Assembly: GCA_030452985.1 (NCBI GenBank)
Contig: JAKDLG010000007.1
Coordinates: 1-64,000, forward strand
Source of the DNA: Humibacillus sp.
GTDB taxonomy: Bacteria; Actinomycetota; Actinomycetes; Actinomycetales; Dermatophilaceae
Reading direction: 5' to 3'
DNA: 64,000 nucleotides
Each line of letters starts with the position of its first letter. The stretch's first letter is position 1. Position numbers and translations under genes: made by a program. Below the pieces are notes generated by a model. It ran no database searches, had not been told where the DNA came from, and was given only the letters and a program-made list of their open reading frames with translations. Of this stretch, positions 52,614-64,000 are shown one piece after another.

Positions 52614-53834
52614 TCACTTCCTGCGCAGCACCGCGATCTCACCGGCACTGATGATCAACGGACGGTTGTACGTGCCCTGCAGCTCGTAGCCGCGTGCCTC
52701 GAACATCTCGACGATGCGGCCCGACGTGACCGGCTCGACCACCCCGATCTCGTGAGCGTCGGACTTCATCGGCTTGCCCTTGATCGAGTTGAGCGACACC
52801 GCGTACCGCGGGCCGATCTCACAGACCCGGTCGACGTAGTGCTCAACGACATCGGGTTCCATCTCCTGGAACGAGTAGGAGTTGACGAACACGTCGTAGT
52901 GGCCGGTCAGGTCAGGTAGCCGCCAGTTCGGCAGGCACCCCGACTGCGGGACCTGCAGCTCACCGGTCTGAGCGACATCGTCGGGCCCGAGCACCCGTTC
53001 GCAACCGAACAGCTCGGTCAGGTAGTAGGTGCCGACGGTCAGCAGGGGTGGGATGTCGAGGTTGACGTACCGGGCGTGCGGGTCGCGTGCCATCACGATC
53101 TCGCCGAGCACCCCGAAGCCCCCGCCGAGCTCGAGGAACGACCGGGGCGGCTCGGTGACGTGGCGGCTCAGTGCCGCCAGGCACAGCAGGTAGTTCAGGT
53201 AGGGCCGACCGTGGCGCACCTCCGGGACGGGAGAGACGGCGTATCGCTGCAGAGGGCTGCCCACGGCGGCTTCCCCGAATCCGTCGAGATCGAAGGGCCA
53301 CCGGTTCTGGTCCCACGCGAGCCGGGCGGCGTCGAAGTCGCGTCGGGCGTCAACACCACCAGTGAGGGACGTGCGCAGCCACTGCTCGGTCACGTACGGA
53401 TTGATCTCGAGCGCGTGGGGAAGCAGGGCGTCGATGCGGGCGTAGGTGAAGCCGTTGCCGTAGACGGGATAGAACCAGAAGTCGGCTGTCGGCCACGACT
53501 TGAACCGGCTCATCCCGTGCGCGCGCATGTCGGCCAACAGGTGCTCGAGACCGGGGCCCCAGAAGTTCGTGGGCCGGTGGTGCGGGTCACAATCAGCGAG
53601 ACCCTCCAGGGAGCGAGCCGTCATCACCTCCCATCGCGGGTCCTCGTCGGGCCTTACAAGGGTGGCGTGCGCGTCCTGCGGGGCCGGCGACCGCCTGGGT
53701 ACAGGCACGGACACGGGCACAGGCACGGCTGGTGCCGGACCCGGGCGGCCTGGCTCGGCGGCAGGAGCACCGACTCTGCTGAGACGGCGTCCGGCTCGTT
53801 GCGCGAGGCGATGGTGAAGAGGCGTGGGAGGCAC
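52614..53834 (-). CDS. Putative sugar O-methyltransferase
   Basis: 406 residues from GTG (leaderless TAGTCT-N6). After a Pro/Val-rich N-terminus ([16 protein letters not shown]) the body has [40 protein letters not shown] and an AdoMet-binding core [46 protein letters not shown], with [22 protein letters not shown]. This matches the putative sugar O-methyltransferase group of polysaccharide loci. The position between glgM and glgC suggests methylation of a glucan or maltosyl intermediate; that is inference. Confidence 0.75.
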
Positions 53835-57468: not shown

Positions 57469-58377
57469 ATGCAGTCCCCGGCAACAGCGCCCGTGGCCCC
57501 GAGGTCGGTGCAACGCACGCTCCTCATCATCGGAGGAGCCGAAGACCGGATCGGGCGTTCGGTGGTTCTCAAGCGCTTCGTCAAGCTCGCCGGTGGGCGC
57601 CGGTCACGGATCGTACTGATCCCCACCGCGTCGTCGTTCGCGAGCGAGGTGGCGCAGGCCTACCGCGACGTCTTCACCCGGCTGCGCGGCGGCGAGGTCA
57701 CGGTCGTCGACCCGGTGACCCGTCGTGACGCGAACGACCCGGAGATGGTCGAGGCCCTCGACGCGGCGACCGGGGTCTTCATCACCGGTGGAAGCCAGGT
57801 CAAGCTCGCCCAGAACATCGTCGGAACCCCGGTCGGCGACGCCATCCTGCGCGCCCACGAGCGCGGCGCGGTCGTCGCCGGCACGTCTGCCGGCGCCTCC
57901 ATCATGAGCCGCTACATGATCTCCCTCGGCGAGGAGGGGGTGACACCGCGGCAGCGGGTCAGCCAGATCTCGGCCGGGCTCGGTCTCGTCGAGGACATCA
58001 TCATCGACCAGCACTTCGACCAGCGAGGGCGGTACGGGCGCCTGATGTCGATCGTGGCGGCGTCGCCGAGCCTGCTCGGCATGGGCATCGACGAGAACAC
58101 CGCGGCCGAGATTCGTGGCGACGCCACGATGACGGTCATCGGCAGCGGGGCCATCTTCCTCGTCAACGCCCGCAACGCGATCACCGACGCTCCCGAGGCC
58201 CGTCGAGGCGCCCCCCTGCTCGTGTCCGGAGCGGTGGTGCACTCCCTGCCCACGGGCAGCACGTTCGACCTGACCGAGGTCGAGCTGACCGACTTCATCG
58301 AACGCCACCCCGACATCGAGGGCTCTGTCGTACCGGCCCAGGTGCGCACCGAACGCACCCGCAGCAGCGCTCACTGA
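57469..58377 (+). CDS. cphB: Cyanophycinase
   Basis: 302 residues. A peptidase S51 serine exopeptidase that cuts cyanophycin into beta-Asp-Arg dipeptides. TLLIIGGAEDRIGRSVVLKRFV, GVFITGGSQVKLAQNI (Gln110), the nucleophile elbow VVAGTSAGASIMSRYM (Ser140) and IIIDQHFDQRGRYGRLMSIVAASPSLLGMGIDENTA are all conserved. No signal peptide, so intracellular. Just upstream of cphA but with its own promoter, so storage and mobilisation can be set separately. Confidence 0.95.
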   Translation: MQSPATAPVAPRSVQRTLLIIGGAEDRIGRSVVLKRFVKLAGGRRSRIVLIPTASSFASEVAQAYRDVFTRLRGGEVTVVDPVTRRDANDPEMVEALDAATGVFITGGSQVKLAQNIVGTPVGDAILRAHERGAVVAGTSAGASIMSRYMISLGEEGVTPRQRVSQISAGLGLVEDIIIDQHFDQRGRYGRLMSIVAASPSLLGMGIDENTAAEIRGDATMTVIGSGAIFLVNARNAITDAPEARRGAPLLVSGAVVHSLPTGSTFDLTEVELTDFIERHPDIEGSVVPAQVRTERTRSSAH

Positions 58378-58398
58378 CCACGACCGCCGCGCAGGTCA

Positions 58399-58404
58399 TA
58401 GGGT
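58399..58404 (+). promoter_or_regulatory. -10 box of cphA
   Basis: TAGGGT about 65 bases before the cphA ATG, giving a leader of about 58 bases with an AGGAGGAG ribosome-binding site. Unlike its neighbours, cphA is not leaderless. Confidence 0.45.
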
Positions 58405-58468
58405 CATCTCCGGGACGTGTCAGCAAGGCCGTCCGCCACCACCGCGTTGATCGTGCAGGAGGAGCTCC

Positions 58469-61357
58469 ATGGCCGTCGAGGTTCCCACCCCCACCGGGCC
58501 CGCTCGGCCCGACCTGCGCATCCTGGAGACCCGGGTCTACCGCGGCGGCAACGTCTGGAGCTACCAGCAGGCGATTCACCTCGTCGTCGACCTGGGCAGC
58601 CTCGAGCAGTACCCGACCGTGTCTCTGCCGGGCTTCACCGACCACCTGTTGGAGGCGGTGCCTGGCCTGGCCCGCCACACCTGCTCCCTCGGACGCAAGG
58701 GCGGTTTCATCGAGCGAATGCGGGACGGCACCTGGCTCGGTCACGTCGCCGAGCACGTCGCCCTGCAGCTGCAGACCATGGCCGGGCACGACCAGCGCCG
58801 GGGCAAGACGCGCGGGGTGAAGGGCAAGCCCGGCCAGTACAACATCATCTACGGCTACACCGACGAACGGGTCGCGGTGGCGGCAGGGCGTCTCGCCGTG
58901 CGGCTGATCAACCACCTGGTCGAGGCCGAACCGGAGTTCGACTTCGAGACCGAGCTCAACGAGTTCCTGCGCCAGGCCGAACGGGTCGCGTTCGGGCCTT
59001 CGACGAACGCGATCCTCGAGGAGGCGGCCTCCCGCGACATCCCCTTCATCCGGCTCAACTCGGCGTCGCTCGTGCAGCTGGGCCAGGGGGTGCACGCCCA
59101 GCGCATCCGCGCCACGATGACCTCGAAGACGGGTGCGCTCGCTGTCGACATTGCCGGCGACAAGGACCTCACCACGACCCTGCTCGGTTCGGCGGGGCTA
59201 CCCGTTCCCAAGCAGGAGGCGGTACGCACACTGCAGGGCACCCTGGAGGCAGCGCACAAGATCGGCTTCCCCGTCGTCGTCAAACCCCTCGACGGCAACC
59301 ACGGGCGCGGAGTCTGCCTCAACCTGAGCAGTGACGCGGAGGTCGAGAAGGCCTTCGACATCGCGAAGGGCGAGTCGAGACGCGGCACGATCATCGTCGA
59401 GTCGTTCGTCACCGGCCGCGACTACCGCTGTCTCATCGTCGGCGGAAAGATGCAGGCCATCGCCGAACGGGTGCCGGCCCACGTGGTGGGCGATGGCACC
59501 CACACGGTGGCCGAGCTGGTCGCGGTCACCAACGCCGACCCGCGCCGTGGCGTCGGGCACGAGAAGGTGCTGACCAAGATCAAGGTCGATGACGCGGCCC
59601 TCGAGGTGCTTGCCGGCCAGGGTCACACCCTCGAGTCGGTGCCACCGGAGGGCGAGATGGTCAAGCTGGCCCTCACGGGCAACATGTCGACCGGTGGCAT
59701 CTCGATCGACCGCACCTTCGACGCCCACCCCGACAACGTCGAGATCGCCGAGGAGGCGGCGCGCATGGTCGGTCTCGACGTGGCCGGCATCGACTTCATC
59801 TGCCCCGACATCACCTTCCCCGTGCGTGAGACCGGTGGCGCGATCTGCGAGGTCAACGCGGCGCCCGGCTTCCGCATGCACACCCACCCGACGATCGGCG
59901 AACCGCAGTTCATCGCCAAACCCGTCGTCGACCTGCTCTTTCCGCCCGGCTCGCAGTCGCGGGTGCCGATCGTGGCGGTCACCGGCACCAACGGCAAGAC
60001 GACCACCTCGCGCATGATCGCCCACATCTTCAAGGGGCTGGGGCGCAAGGTCGGCATGACCTCGACCGACGGCGTCGTCATCGACGAGCGCCTGGTCATC
60101 AAGGCCGACGCGTCCGGGCCCCGGTCGGCGCGGATGGTGCTGCAGAACCCGCGCGTCGACTTCGCCGTCATGGAGGTCGCCCGTGGCGGCATCCTTCGCG
60201 AGGGTCTGGGCTATGACCGCAACGACATCGCCGTGGTGACCAACGTGGCCCCCGACCACCTGGGGCTGCGGGGGATCGACACGCTCCGCCAGCTGGCCGA
60301 TGTCAAGGCCGTCGTCGTCGAAGCTGTGCCGCGCAACGGGTTCGCGGTGCTCAACGCCGACGACCCGAACGTGCGCAACATGCGACGACGGTGCTCAGGC
60401 GAGATCGTCTGGTTCACCATGGAGGAGCCGGGCAGCGAGATCCGCGACTTCGTCGACGACCACTGCCGCCGTGGCGGCCGTGCGATCGTGCTCGACCCCA
60501 GCGACCGGGGCGACATGATCGTCATCAAGCACGGTCGACGCAGCATGCAGCTGGCCTGGACCCACCTGCTGCCGGCCACCTTCGGAGGCGCTGCCCGCTT
60601 CAACGTCGCGAACTCGCTCGCCGCCGCTGGGGCGGCCTTCGCCGCGGGCGCCCCCCTGCACGACATCCGCCAGGGCCTGCGCACCTTCTCGACCTCGTAC
60701 TACCTCTCTCCCGGGCGGCTCAACCTCATCGAGGTCGGAGGCGCCAGCGTCTTCCTCGACTACTGCCACAACGCCGCTGGTATGCGCGAGCTGGGCGCCT
60801 TCGTCGACCGCTACGCCGAGCAGATGCAGCTGCAGAACGACCTCGCGAAGACCTCCCGCATCGGCATGATCGGGGCCGCCGGAGACCGTCGCGACGACGA
60901 CATGCGCGAGCTCGGCGAGGTGGCCGCCCACCACTTCGACGTCATCGTCATCCGCGAGGACGAACGGCTCCGCGGTCGCAAGCCGGGCGTGACGGCCCGG
61001 CTCGTCGCCGAAGGGGCCAAGGCGGCCATGGCCGCCGGGGCGCGGTGCCAACAGGTGGAGGTGGTGCTCGACGAGCTCGGCGCCGCCCGCCACGTGCTCG
61101 CCCGCACCAACCCCGGAGATCTCGTGGTTCTGTGCGTCGACCAGCACGCCATGATCGCGGCCGAGCTCGAGGAACGCACCAAGTACGCCCAGGCCGGCGC
61201 CCACGTGGGCGAGGGAGAGGGCGCCACCAGCGACCCCGACCTCGACCCCGGCACGCTCACCTCCTCCGCCGCCGCGGAGGGCACCGAGGCCTCCGACGAG
61301 GCGCTCGCCACCGCTCCCAACGAGATGGAGGAGAAGGTCGACGACACGGCCATCTGA
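58469..61357 (+). CDS. cphA: Cyanophycin synthetase
   Basis: 962 residues from the ATG after AGGAGGAG. Builds multi-L-arginyl-poly-L-aspartate from Asp and Arg with two ATP per unit. An N-terminal domain (LRILETRVYRGGNVWSYQQAIHLVVDLG; ERMRDGTWLGHVAEHVALQLQ) is followed by ATP-grasp, about 225-480 (VVVKPLDGNHGRGVCLNL; EVNAAPGFRMHTHP), which adds Asp. A Mur-ligase domain with P-loop VTGTNGKTTTSRM (about 504-516), DYCHNAAGMRELG and GAAGDRRDDDM adds Arg. About 90 residues longer than classical CphA (about 870), partly due to an acidic Ser/Thr/Ala tail after HVGEGEGA. Well formed, so the strain probably stores cyanophycin. Confidence 0.96.
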   Translation: MAVEVPTPTGPARPDLRILETRVYRGGNVWSYQQAIHLVVDLGSLEQYPTVSLPGFTDHLLEAVPGLARHTCSLGRKGGFIERMRDGTWLGHVAEHVALQLQTMAGHDQRRGKTRGVKGKPGQYNIIYGYTDERVAVAAGRLAVRLINHLVEAEPEFDFETELNEFLRQAERVAFGPSTNAILEEAASRDIPFIRLNSASLVQLGQGVHAQRIRATMTSKTGALAVDIAGDKDLTTTLLGSAGLPVPKQEAVRTLQGTLEAAHKIGFPVVVKPLDGNHGRGVCLNLSSDAEVEKAFDIAKGESRRGTIIVESFVTGRDYRCLIVGGKMQAIAERVPAHVVGDGTHTVAELVAVTNADPRRGVGHEKVLTKIKVDDAALEVLAGQGHTLESVPPEGEMVKLALTGNMSTGGISIDRTFDAHPDNVEIAEEAARMVGLDVAGIDFICPDITFPVRETGGAICEVNAAPGFRMHTHPTIGEPQFIAKPVVDLLFPPGSQSRVPIVAVTGTNGKTTTSRMIAHIFKGLGRKVGMTSTDGVVIDERLVIKADASGPRSARMVLQNPRVDFAVMEVARGGILREGLGYDRNDIAVVTNVAPDHLGLRGIDTLRQLADVKAVVVEAVPRNGFAVLNADDPNVRNMRRRCSGEIVWFTMEEPGSEIRDFVDDHCRRGGRAIVLDPSDRGDMIVIKHGRRSMQLAWTHLLPATFGGAARFNVANSLAAAGAAFAAGAPLHDIRQGLRTFSTSYYLSPGRLNLIEVGGASVFLDYCHNAAGMRELGAFVDRYAEQMQLQNDLAKTSRIGMIGAAGDRRDDDMRELGEVAAHHFDVIVIREDERLRGRKPGVTARLVAEGAKAAMAAGARCQQVEVVLDELGAARHVLARTNPGDLVVLCVDQHAMIAAELEERTKYAQAGAHVGEGEGATSDPDLDPGTLTSSAAAEGTEASDEALATAPNEMEEKVDDTAI

Positions 61358-61382
61358 GCCGAATGCCGCCCGTCTCTGCGGT

Positions 61383-61798
61383 TCAGGGCTTGTCGAGATA
61401 CAGGCAGAAGGGATGCCCGGCGGGATCGAGCAGCACCCGCACGCCAGCCTGCGGCTGATGCTGGGGGAGGTCGGCCCGAGCGCGACGGCTCGTTCCGTCT
61501 CGCCTGCCAGATCAGTGACCTGGAAGTCGAGGTGAAGCATCATCTGCTGGCTGCCGGGCGGCGCAGGCCACACCGGCCGCACGAACCCTTCGTTGCGCTG
61601 AATGCTGAGATAGGCCACCCCCTCACCGAGGTCGAGAGCGGCGCCGCTCTCGCCCTGCGCCCAGATTTTCCACCCGCGGAGCTCTGAGTAGAACCGCGCC
61701 AGAACACCGACATCCGGCGCGTCGAGCACGACCCCCCACCAATCTTTGCGCCGCCAGCGATCAGGGGCGAGTGGCGGCGGCGCGGATGGCGTGCTCAT
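61383..61798 (-). pseudogene. VOC/glyoxalase-like gene with a one-base frameshift
   Basis: From the ATG at 61798 the frame encodes MSTPSAPPPLAPDRWRRKDWWGVVLDAPDVGVLARFYSELRGWKIWAQ ... MLHLDFQVTDLAGETERAVALG. At 61475-61477 the normal ending continues in another frame: ADLPQHQPQAGVRVLLDPAGHPFCLYLDKP and a stop at 61383. One missing G in a G run explains it. The restored product, about 138 residues, would be a complete VOC domain with the usual GHPFCLYL end. Either a real loss or a sequencing error in the homopolymer. Leaderless TACGCT-N6-ATG promoter (61805-61810) intact. Confidence 0.85.
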
Positions 61799-61849
61799 GC
61801 GACGAGCGTACGGAGCGCTGTGGTGGCCTGCAGTGTCAGTGGTGCCCTC

Positions 61850-61855
61850 TAGTTT
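61850..61855 (+). promoter_or_regulatory. -10 box of the AlkA-type glycosylase gene
   Basis: TAGTTT gives a leader of about 46 bases ending in GGAAGAAGG before the ATG at 61908. Confidence 0.35.
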
Positions 61856-61907
61856 CGGAACAGGTCATTTCTCGCCGCGCTCTGCGGCTACCGGAAGAAG
61901 GTCTTCG

Positions 61908-62780
61908 ATGACGGAACACCAGGTCGACATCGAAGTGCTCGGGCCGTGGTCACTGGCCACCAGCCGAACGTTCTGGGAGGGCTTCGCGCCCGCCGCGCTC
62001 GCCCGCACCGGCGCATCGGCGACGCTCCGGTCCGTCTTTCTCAATGAACACGACTGGTCACGAACCGAGGTCAACGTGACCCAGCACGATGCCACTGCCG
62101 TGATCTCGGTGTCTGGTGATGGCGACCTCGAGGCCGCCGTGGCGCAGGTGTGCCGCTTCCTGGCCCTCGACGTCGACGCGCGTGGCTGGCCCGCCGTGGG
62201 TGAAAGCGATGCCGTGATCGCCGACGCCCAGCGTCAGCTGCCGGGTCTGCGTCCCTGTGGGTTCCACTCCCCCTACGAGGCGGCCGCGTGGGCGGTGCTG
62301 TCGCAGCGGGTGCGCATCGTTCAGGCGGCCCGGCTGCGCGCCGACCTCGTTCGCGAGCACGGCGACGACGGCGCCTTCCTCCCGCCGCAGCGGCTGCGTA
62401 CCCTCGAGCTCGACCTGCCGGGCCGCAAGAGCGAGTACCTGCGGTCGGTGGCCGACGCCGCTCTCGACGGTCGCCTCGACGGCCCGACCCTGCGCCACGT
62501 CGACCCCGCCGAGGCGGTGAGCCGCGTGGCGCAGATCAAGGGGCTCGGGCCCTTCTCGGCCGAGCTCGTCGTGCTGCGCGGAGCCAACGCCCCCGATGCG
62601 GTCCCGGCCCACGAGCGTCGCCTCGAGGCCGAGGTCACCGAGCGCTACGGGCCCGACCGCGACCTCGTCGAGGTCTCGCAGGCGTGGAGACCCTTCCGCA
62701 CCTGGGCGTCGGTGCACCTGCGTGCCCTGCGCGAACAACGTGAGAACCCGACCGGCCCACACGGCGGCAGCGGGCCCTGA
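61908..62780 (+). CDS. AlkA-type DNA-3-methyladenine glycosylase family protein
   Basis: 290 residues. HhH-GPD fold: HSPYEAAAWAVLSQRVRIVQAARLRADLVREHG, then the hairpin VAQIKGLGPFSAELVVLRG and RPFRTWASVHLRALR. Removes alkylated bases by flipping them out of DNA. After GANAPDAV the active-site segment reads PAHERRL where E. coli AlkA has its catalytic Asp, so a Glu or no acid may serve. The N-terminal domain is divergent (VLGPWSLATSRTFWEGF). Confidence 0.85.
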   Translation: MTEHQVDIEVLGPWSLATSRTFWEGFAPAALARTGASATLRSVFLNEHDWSRTEVNVTQHDATAVISVSGDGDLEAAVAQVCRFLALDVDARGWPAVGESDAVIADAQRQLPGLRPCGFHSPYEAAAWAVLSQRVRIVQAARLRADLVREHGDDGAFLPPQRLRTLELDLPGRKSEYLRSVADAALDGRLDGPTLRHVDPAEAVSRVAQIKGLGPFSAELVVLRGANAPDAVPAHERRLEAEVTERYGPDRDLVEVSQAWRPFRTWASVHLRALREQRENPTGPHGGSGP

Positions 62781-62790
62781 CCACGCTTGC

Positions 62791-62824
62791 CGACGGGGCG
62801 ACGCCGCGCGACGCCGCCCCGTCG
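62791..62824. terminator. 10-bp hairpin after the glycosylase gene
   Basis: CGACGGGGCG (62791-62800) pairs exactly with CGCCCCGTCG (62815-62824) between two convergent genes; the interior can pair further. Confidence 0.65.
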
Positions 62825-62830
62825 GGGCGT

Positions 62831-62860
62831 CGCAGTCGCAGTCGCAGTCGCAGCCGCAGA
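62831..62860. repeat. Hexamer tandem repeat CGCAGT
   Basis: Five 6-base units, three CGCAGT followed by CGCAGC and CGCAGA, directly after the hairpin, in the gap between the glycosylase and the Mur-ligase-like gene. Confidence 0.8.
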
Positions 62861-62887
62861 CGAAAGCCGGTGGTCAGCGGATGCCGC

Positions 62888-64000
62888 TCACCCGATGGGT
62901 GCGGTGGCAGGCGCGAGCTGGTCGGCCTGGGCCAACAGGCTCTGCCGGTAGCTCTGGGTGTCGGGGTCGGAGGTCGCTTCGAGGGTGGCCCGGATGAGGT
63001 CAGCCACGGCCTGACGCTCTCGGCCGAGGTCGGCCTGGAGCAGGGCCCGCAGCACCAGGGCCGCAGTGTGATGAGGCCGGGTCTCCAGCACCTCCTCGAC
63101 GAGGCACTGCGCCTCGAGCGTCTTGCCCTGGGCACGCAGGCCCTGGGCGGTCAGCAGCTGGGCCCGGTGGCGGTGCGGCTCCTTCAGCCCGGCATCCAGC
63201 GCGTGTTCGAAGCTGGACAGCGCGGCGGCACTGTCGCCGACCACGTCGAGCGCGCCGGCGAGCTCGAAGAGCAGGCGACCGTCACCGGGGTGGGTCTGGG
63301 CCAGGTCTCGAGCAGCCGCGACCCGGGCAGCGGCGTCCTCCAGCGCCCAGAAGGCGCCGATCTCGGCCTCGAACTCGTGCTCGCCCCGAGCCGCCACGAC
63401 CTTGCGGCGGATCGCCTTGGCGTCGTCGACCTTCCCGCCCTGTTCTCGGATCCAGCGGTCAACCGCCTCCCGCTCGGAGTGGCACATCAACGCGATGACA
63501 TCGCCCGGCTGGGCGTTGCCCACGATGACCTCGAACGACGACAGCTCGGTGTCGAAGCAAGGCACGTCGAGCACACCCACCCTGGCCAGGCCTTCCCGGA
63601 ACAGGCCCGCCAGCCCGTCGGGCTCGCGTCCGCGCAGGTAGGCGTGAACCACCTTGACCACGACCTGGTCGGCCTCGCGTCCCGCGATCTCGCCCATGGC
63701 CGTGATCGCCTCGTCAGGCCGGTCGCCGGCGCAGCCCAGGCTGAGTCGCACCGACCCACCGGGCGCCGTGAGGCCGCGGGCCACCTGGAGCAATGCCTCG
63801 AGGCCGGCCTCGTTGTGAGCCATGTCGATGATCGCCGTTGCCTTGCCGCCCGACGACAGCGGCAGGGAGTAGGTGTTGAGTCGCCCCCAGTTGTGCTCGG
63901 GGTCGGGCGCGAAGGTGCGCAGCCCCTCGATGACGGCGGCCCGGGCCACCCCGAGACCGAGCGCCGCCGCGGCGCCGGCGAGCGCGTTGGCGATGTTGTT
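62888..64000 (-). CDS. Mur-ligase-like protein with C-terminal TPR region, 5' end outside window
   Basis: 370 codons remain and the frame is open through the right edge (NNIANALAGAAAALGLGVARAAVIEGLRTFAPDPEHNWGRLNTYSL), so the P-loop half lies outside. AIIDMAHNEAGLEALLQVARGL parallels DYCHNAAGMREL of cphA, and SLGCAGDRPDEAI parallels its GAAGDRRDDD. So this is the second half of a Mur-type amide ligase related to the cyanophycin synthetase C-terminal module. After about residue 225 a helical repeat tail follows (GRLLFELAGALDVVGDSAAALSSFEHALDAG; LTAQGLRAQGKTLEAQCLVEEVLETRP; TAALVLRALLQADLGRERQAVADL), TPR-like. Substrate unknown. Confidence 0.82.
   Translation of the reverse strand, partial: NNIANALAGAAAALGLGVARAAVIEGLRTFAPDPEHNWGRLNTYSLPLSSGGKATAIIDMAHNEAGLEALLQVARGLTAPGGSVRLSLGCAGDRPDEAITAMGEIAGREADQVVVKVVHAYLRGREPDGLAGLFREGLARVGVLDVPCFDTELSSFEVIVGNAQPGDVIALMCHSEREAVDRWIREQGGKVDDAKAIRRKVVAARGEHEFEAEIGAFWALEDAAARVAAARDLAQTHPGDGRLLFELAGALDVVGDSAAALSSFEHALDAGLKEPHRHRAQLLTAQGLRAQGKTLEAQCLVEEVLETRPHHTAALVLRALLQADLGRERQAVADLIRATLEATSDPDTQSYRQSLLAQADQLAPATAPIG

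Follow-up and report, generated by a model that had tools for sequence, protein, structure and literature searches.

A stand-alone relative of the cyanophycin synthetase M domain encoded beside cphA and cphB in Humibacillus, with a predicted role in cyanophycin metabolism

Genes of the cyanophycin locus

The DNA considered in this study, 64,000 nucleotides from Humibacillus sp. (contig JAKDLG010000007.1; the whole stretch is called the window below), carries near its right end the genes of a cyanophycinase (cphB), a cyanophycin synthetase (cphA) and a second ligase of the Mur type, which is the main subject here. The window comprises positions 1-64000 of a parent contig of 70,376 bases, and its right edge cuts the ligase gene, so that the ligase N domain and P-loop lie beyond it. 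On the parent contig the complete gene occupies 62888-65122 of the minus strand, from the ATG at 65122 to the end of the stop codon at 62888, and encodes 744 amino acids. The features of the locus are as follows.

57469..58377, plus strand: cphB, cyanophycinase, 302 amino acids (TIGR02069 229.3 bits, cut-off 126.6; Peptidase_S51)
58469..61357, plus strand: cphA, full-length cyanophycin synthetase, 962 amino acids (TIGR02068 1150.1 bits, cut-off 850; Pfam N, ATP-grasp G and Mur-like M domains)
62888..64000, minus strand: second ligase, 3' part, the C-terminal 370 amino acids with Mur_ligase_C and a tetratricopeptide repeat (TPR) tail (Pfam)
62888..63382, minus strand: TPR tail of the ligase, about residues 581-744 (TPR_5, E-value 3.8e-15, residues 617-733)
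61383..61798, minus strand, 3' end uncertain: glyoxalase/VOC-like gene between cphA and the ligase, outside the module (Glyoxalase_6, E-value 9.2e-13)
61746..62780, plus strand: open reading frame (ORF) between cphA and the ligase, outside the module (no Pfam match)

An earlier note, made from the window alone, had described complete cphB and cphA genes followed, after two genes, by a ligase with motifs parallel to those of CphA and with helical repeats at its end. The description stands: both cph genes pass the cut-offs of their families; the two intervening genes are the glyoxalase-like gene (minus strand) and the ORF ending at 62780 (plus strand); all four motifs can be read in the translations (DYCHNAAG and GAAGDRRDDD in CphA, DMAHNEAG and GCAGDRPDE in the ligase); and the repeats are of the TPR type. 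The window's CphA covers the TIGR02068 model almost end to end and has the Cx19HxxEH motif in its N domain.

A ligase related to CphA but without its ATP-grasp domain

Over its full length the ligase matches three Pfam families, Mur_ligase_M (residues 175-387), Mur_ligase_C (426-546) and TPR_5 (617-733). The search for an ATP-grasp domain past the right edge, which the earlier note had proposed, was run on the parent contig: no ATP-grasp family matched the 744 residues at an E-value of 1 or better, and the P-loop is reached already at residue 177. A CphA2-like enzyme, one of the identities suggested at the outset, is therefore rejected, the full-length protein having no ATP-grasp domain and keeping its Mur-ligase site.

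The relationship to CphA is confined to part of that enzyme. Against TIGR02068 the ligase scores 336.8 bits, below the cut-off of 850, and aligns with model positions 478-855 only. A profile of its M domain matches CphA with an hhalign E-value of 1.2e-79, and the domain is about 36-40% identical to the M domain of CphA1. None of the NCBIfam cut-offs for the classical Mur ligases is reached (best MurE model 88.3 against 373, MurC 39.8 against 335.1, MurD 40.9 against 211.95, MurF 38.7 against 288.6), nor that for FolC (TIGR01499, 24.4 against 162.65), and a scan of the window's ligase with NCBIfam found no model that reaches its cut-off. The outcome that the earlier note had named as refuting its proposal, a classical MurC/D/E/F or folylpolyglutamate synthase, thus did not turn up. 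The enzyme was rightly seen as a second CphA-related enzyme of the Mur-ligase type at a cyanophycin locus. Its N region matches the N domains of CphA in hhalign at 71% (E-value 3.7e-5, 126 columns), as compared to 0.5% for G domains and 0.3% for M domains, and I read it as a putative degenerate CphA-type N domain. The ligase of locus L060 (723 amino acids), which has a misplaced start, was left out of the N-domain profile.

Solved structures tell a similar story. An AlphaFold model was made for the 90%-identical orthologue of another Humibacillus (7 sequences; mean predicted local distance difference test score, pLDDT, 68.9), and the structures nearest to it are CphA1s. The four best aligned CphA1 entries give Z-scores of 25.3-26.3 with root-mean-square deviations (rmsd) of 8.1-8.9 A over 444-461 residues. 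Residues 14-567 of the model pair with residues 1-877 of the CphA1 chain, both ends being aligned and the G domain skipped; in the top alignment (Z 26.3) residues 14-562 pair with the same chain residues. The best Mur ligase structure has a Z-score of 19.8, with an rmsd of 3.9 over 293 residues.

Relatives beyond the phylum and the M-domain tree

A search of plasmids found genes labeled 'Mur ligase family' adjoining cphA in Shinella, Roseateles sp. XES5 and two Ruegeria records, and also matched a gene named Mur ligase in Paracoccus. The order in the two records fetched, of Shinella and Ruegeria, is cyanophycinase-cphA-ligase, the ligase being on the strand of cphA with gaps of 12 and 14 base pairs (bp). 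These two alphaproteobacterial relatives (Shinella WP_160788060.1, 601 amino acids, and Ruegeria WP_117873666.1, 578 amino acids), labeled by NCBI only as 'Mur ligase family protein', have Mur M and C domains, no TPR match and an N region without a Pfam match. That region aligns with the N region of the actinobacterial ligases in MAFFT and shares with it the start L-x-G-(P/A)-x-L.

In the tree of M domains, the two relatives and the actinobacterial ligases come together with 100% ultrafast bootstrap support (the actinobacterial ligases among themselves with 89%), in a clade separate from the full-length CphAs sampled. The ligase is a stand-alone protein of putative N-M layout, a relative of the CphA M domain with a clade of its own. 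The outgroup consisted of two distant Mur sequences on a long branch, one from the window's own genome (L001) and one from a viral contig (L088), so an early split of the ligase before the diversification of CphA depends on the root; the separation of the two clans is supported. In the tree that gives these bootstrap values, the rows ligP_L104, L105, L114 and L115 fall inside the CphA clade and are very probably mislabeled CphAs, some of them replacing the ligase of the same locus. The search of viral contigs found one distant Mur ligase only. A recent truncated duplicate or pseudogene of cphA is rejected by a clade separate from the full-length CphAs that were sampled, by purifying selection and by the catalytic residues that have been kept.

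Catalytic residues and candidate specificity sites

Six residues (K181, T182, T204, E240, D267 and H268) do not vary among the 23 orthologues that were aligned. With an offset of 318 they map to K499, T500, T522 and E558 of TeCphA1 and to D585 and H586 of SuCphA1. The four TeCphA1 residues are described as binding Mg-ATP, with activity impaired by K499A, and the SuCphA1 residues as the two that were mutated to abolish M activity (PMC9427784, PMC9262961). The residue set of a Mur-type ligase (P-loop Lys and Thr, Mg-binding Thr and Glu, catalytic Asp-His) is complete, and the ligase keeps the ATP/Mg and catalytic residues of the M domain.

This conservation bears on the idea that the protein has no catalytic function and serves as a regulator or scaffold, a subunit resembling CphA that would bind either CphA or the polymer. 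The TPR tail was added in some lineages, as might suit such a role, and the matches of the ligase include MurE-like proteins that are not known to be ligases, such as PAP11. In addition, contacts of the M core are described as building the CphA1 tetramer (PMC9427784), so that a spare M could join it. An idle copy, however, would have no need of tested ATP/Mg and catalytic residues that are invariant in all 23 orthologues, and I consider the idea very improbable.

Among the positions that set the ligases apart from CphA, G224 (S553 in CphA) and N411 (S747 in CphA) are kept in the ligases and in both alphaproteobacterial relatives and differ in CphA, and Y495 of the sequence YLRGR is present in 23/23 orthologues and both relatives at a position that is variable in CphA. 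These are candidate specificity sites. Other positions were considered and set aside. L248 occupies the position of CphA R577 in 28 of 31 ligases, but R is found there, as in CphA, in L072, L100 and both alphaproteobacterial relatives. E438 (of HNEAG) is out, since the Acinetobacter CphA1 (7lgm) also has HNEA, and so is P406, where Shinella and L103 differ.

Distribution and linkage to cphA and cphB

Clear orthologues in a sample of the class were defined by an E-value below 1e-140. In this sample and that of the phylum, a CphA-type match means a match to the M domain of the ligase query, confirmed as CphA, by its own search or motif, only where loci were fetched. The ligase was found in 25 of 296 genomes of the class, all 25 of which also have a CphA-type match (three of them with the two genes on different contigs). 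The co-occurrence gives a Fisher p of 1e-31 when the relatedness of the genomes is ignored. The phylum sample has the ligase in 24 of 396 genomes, four of them also in the class sample, and of the 45 distinct ligase genomes in both samples only one, G511 (67% complete), is without a CphA-type match. A search for cyanophycinase in 22 ligase-less genomes gave three weak matches (best E-value 9.7e-7) and none in the other 19.

The ligase gene is convergent (tail to tail) with cphA in all 28 class-set loci with both genes on one contig, within 3 kb of it in 26, the distances ranging from -4 to 8758 bp. Loci L075 and L055 were dropped from these counts as duplicates of L049 and L050, and the CphA of L044, cut by its contig, is left out of the CphA counts and retained for convergence. 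The fabI region of 11 ligase-less relatives contains no ligase, cphA or cphB match. In six of them (L089, L091, L093, L097-L099), serB stands tail to tail with fabI, with 0.16-1.6 kb between the match ends, and this junction is the site where carriers have ligase, cphA and cphB. The other five comprise one with a serB-fabI spacing of 5.9 kb (L090), one with serB inverted (L092) and three with no serB found nearby. The three genes look as if they were gained or lost together as one unit.

It might still be that the ligase produces or modifies some other molecule and is merely a neighbor of the cph genes. Its N domain has diverged and is rich in arginines (R73, R79, R86, R102 and R121 are invariant, 23/23), and fabG-fabI lie upstream of the ligase in Actinobacteria. 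Mere neighborhood fits poorly with the finding that all but one of the ligase genomes have a CphA-type match, with the joint absence of the three genes from relatives and with the separate cphB-cphA-ligase order in Alphaproteobacteria, and I regard it as quite unlikely.

As to the two intervening genes, the ORF at 61746..62780 has a counterpart in one other genome, in a stretch that both L049 and L075 represent, and may be similar to DNA glycosylases of the AlkA type. The glyoxalase-like gene has a frame (window 60395-61798, minus strand) that runs on open, antisense into cphA, to 60395, and the gene may be a recent arrival. Further to the left, a 406-amino-acid ORF without a Pfam match (window 52614-53834, minus strand) adjoins a glgA-like glycosyltransferase gene.

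Selection and the TPR tail

Estimates of dN/dS (nonsynonymous to synonymous substitution rates) for the ligase range from 0.06 to 0.34 over six pairs, and those for cphA are lower in every pair (0.03-0.24). The ligase is functional and evolves faster than CphA. Neither the locus nor the ligase can be put down to chance, given an M-domain match of 1.2e-79 in hhalign, the conservation of the gene, its linkage to cphA and the purifying selection on it.

The tail is another matter. Among 31 distinct ligases, 11 have it (732-753 amino acids), one has it shortened (Dermacoccus, 634 amino acids) and 19 are without it, as judged from length and alignment, Pfam having been used for the window's protein only. 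All tailed ligases in the class sample come from two families of one order, the window's own and a sister family (f1, f5). In the same three pairs, dN/dS is 0.26-0.37 for the tail and 0.10-0.14 for the M domain, making the tail the fastest-evolving part. The idea of the earlier note that the TPR part recruits the ligase to granules fails as a general or core function, since 19 of the 25 orthologues of the class sample have no tail and one has it shortened. In the window's branch the tail is probably a later docking module. Free-standing TPR-type frames of 164-238 amino acids that match it occur in several ligase-less genomes and are a possible source.

Two features of the CphA C-terminus were seen in passing. 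The exact ending DDTAI is found in seven related CphAs, those of the window (61340-61357) and of L044-L049, the 15 residues before it having a mean ungapped identity of 31%; this C-terminal motif may serve for binding or for degradation. Each of the seven genomes holds a TPR-tailed ligase, and the partner CphAs of the tailed ligases in L051-L054 are without DDTAI. The triplet DPD in the variable CphA tail (residues 922-924 in the window) occurs in 30 of 30 CphAs printed from ligase-bearing class genomes, in 4 of 11 from ligase-bearing genomes of other classes (L106, L110, L112, L116) and in none of five from ligase-less genomes. DPD as a docking site for the ligase is not required, with only those 4 of 11 having it, and was not used.

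A predicted role in cyanophycin metabolism

The ligase very probably serves cyanophycin metabolism, given its CphA-related clade, its co-occurrence and convergence with cphA, the joint absence of the genes and the cph operons of Alphaproteobacteria. In the broad sense, with no particular amino acid specified, I put at about 0.6 the probability of the reading that it is an ATP-dependent ligase acting on cyanophycin or its precursors. Most likely it would couple an amino acid to one or the other at a carboxyl of the Asp type. In CphA1, the M domain is described as phosphorylating the Asp just added, at its side-chain carboxyl, to which Arg is then joined (PMC9262961). The stand-alone enzyme, acting in trans to CphA, would by homology activate a carboxyl in the form of an acyl phosphate, with which an amino acid would then be linked. 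Lacking a G domain, it should not build backbone. With a complete CphA present in the carriers as well, the ligase would be expected to contribute what CphA does not, by using a different amino acid, by using a different acceptor (free Asp, short primers or bare Asp residues) or by acting at a different time. The outcome might be to set the side-chain composition, to repair bare Asp side chains or to make starter units. The enzyme may also be a dipeptide ligase or a ligase for a different side chain.

A number of observations weigh against this reading. Residues 10-165 of the ligase match no Pfam family, PF18921 included, and their similarity to the CphA N domain is weak; none of 31 ligases has the Cx19HxxEH zinc site. 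The structural model is of low confidence in the M core (pLDDT below 50 for residues 198-315), and two CphA1 structures, 7txv and 7lgn, align with a Z-score of only 17, no better than Mur ligases. Related genomes are counted many times over in the co-occurrence, and five class genomes have a CphA-type match and no ligase, which means that the ligase is not needed for cyanophycin in general. In Actinobacteria its gene is convergent to cphA and downstream of fabG-fabI, so co-transcription is not necessary. Finally, CphA is complete in the carriers examined, so that a further enzyme for side chains would be superfluous without a difference in substrate or timing.

One might suppose instead that the enzyme is a starter synthetase, which would supply CphA with short primers by joining free Asp and free Arg or by lengthening beta-Asp-Arg. 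The first ligations of CphA1 are reported to be very slow and to be helped by short primers, and the Cx19HxxEH zinc site of CphA1 to cut cyanophycin into primers (PMC9262961). A free-standing M domain could accept small acceptors, and the exact motif is missing from the partner CphAs of Shinella and Ruegeria (both have HxxEH) and from 2 of 11 CphAs of other actinobacterial classes. The site makes CphA1 independent of primers, however, and with its presence in all 29 CphAs of the class set, the window's included, and in the other 9 of the 11, these seem to have no need of further priming; an M-type enzyme, moreover, cannot add backbone Asp, and the argument from R577 to L248 failed with the return of R noted above. 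A starter synthetase seems to me unlikely.

The broad reading, of a ligase acting on cyanophycin or its precursors, can be extended, tentatively and with considerable doubt, to the proposal that many Actinobacteria and some Alphaproteobacteria have a two-ligase cyanophycin, in which CphA makes the Asp-Arg chain and an ancient M-type ligase adds a second amino acid or finishes the side chains. Cyanophycin, a nitrogen-storage polymer, is usually regarded as made by a single enzyme. If the proposal is true, the stored polymer differs chemically from textbook cyanophycin. The conservation of a second ligase alongside cphA and cphB, seen in two phyla, suggests an unrecognised step of the pathway in several producers other than cyanobacteria, and the enzyme offers a directly testable route to new polymer compositions. 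The producers include relatives of wastewater phosphate accumulators that have been discussed for nitrogen recovery (PMC9123174, PMC10687191).

Comparison with known enzymes

No description of such a G-less CphA paralogue was found among the open-access papers on cyanophycin and Mur ligases that were searched. A trace of it may nevertheless have been recorded. Two Tetrasphaera metagenome-assembled genomes are described as having two cphA copies 'in series', the shorter less expressed, in surroundings like those of other Tetrasphaera genomes, with cphB, serB, glgC and glgA (PMC10687191). Since genes of these kinds are also present around the window's locus, the shorter copy may well be a ligase gene of the present family. 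Two cphA copies in an actinobacterial genome may not amount to two synthetases.

Other proteins have approached the same layout from within CphA. Legionella adelaidensis WP_058462805.1 resembles the ligase in its N-M layout (PF18921 N and M, no ATP-grasp match) and stands in a row with a cyanophycinase, but it branches inside CphA with the Chryseobacterium enzyme, as a separate loss of G, and keeps Cx19HxxEH. Its gene (plasmid L123:4323-7967) is also accompanied by an isoaspartyl peptidase, with no cphA within the 11 kb fetched. Relatives of CphA in which the G region is shortened or degenerate occur on Deinococcus plasmids (L121:5023-7197, L124:3699-6215, L122:4684-7183), in two cases with no cyanophycinase in the fetched stretch; that of Deinococcus KNUC1210, known from annotation, follows the genes cphA-isoaspartyl peptidase-cyanophycinase, with two overlapping genes annotated in its place. 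The relatives on two Deinococcus plasmids branch inside CphA. Derivatives of CphA without a working G domain have therefore arisen repeatedly, and the present family stands apart from them.

The MurE enzyme and other Mur ligases share with the ligase Mur_ligase_M, Mur_ligase_C and the fold, but the ligase scores far below their NCBIfam cut-offs. CphA2, whose one active site is the ATP-grasp (G) site, offers a different comparison. Like the ligase, it is a second, reduced relative of CphA without the N-domain peptidase motif (according to PMC9262961), but it is described as polymerizing dipeptides at a single active site (PMC10206079). The ligase has no G domain and has kept the M site, so the two differ in what remains of CphA.

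The closest comparison is with CphA1, which the ligase resembles in its M domain, in the tested catalytic residues and in the position of its putative degenerate N domain, and whose gene it adjoins, along with cphB. It differs in having neither the G domain nor Cx19HxxEH, in falling below the TIGR02068 cut-off and in forming its own clade. In a tree analysis that has been published, CphA is treated as the result of fusing an ATP-grasp protein with a Mur ligase (PMC11915815). The ligase bears on how CphA was assembled from these parts, and the N-M form could have descended from a ligase that predates the fusion.

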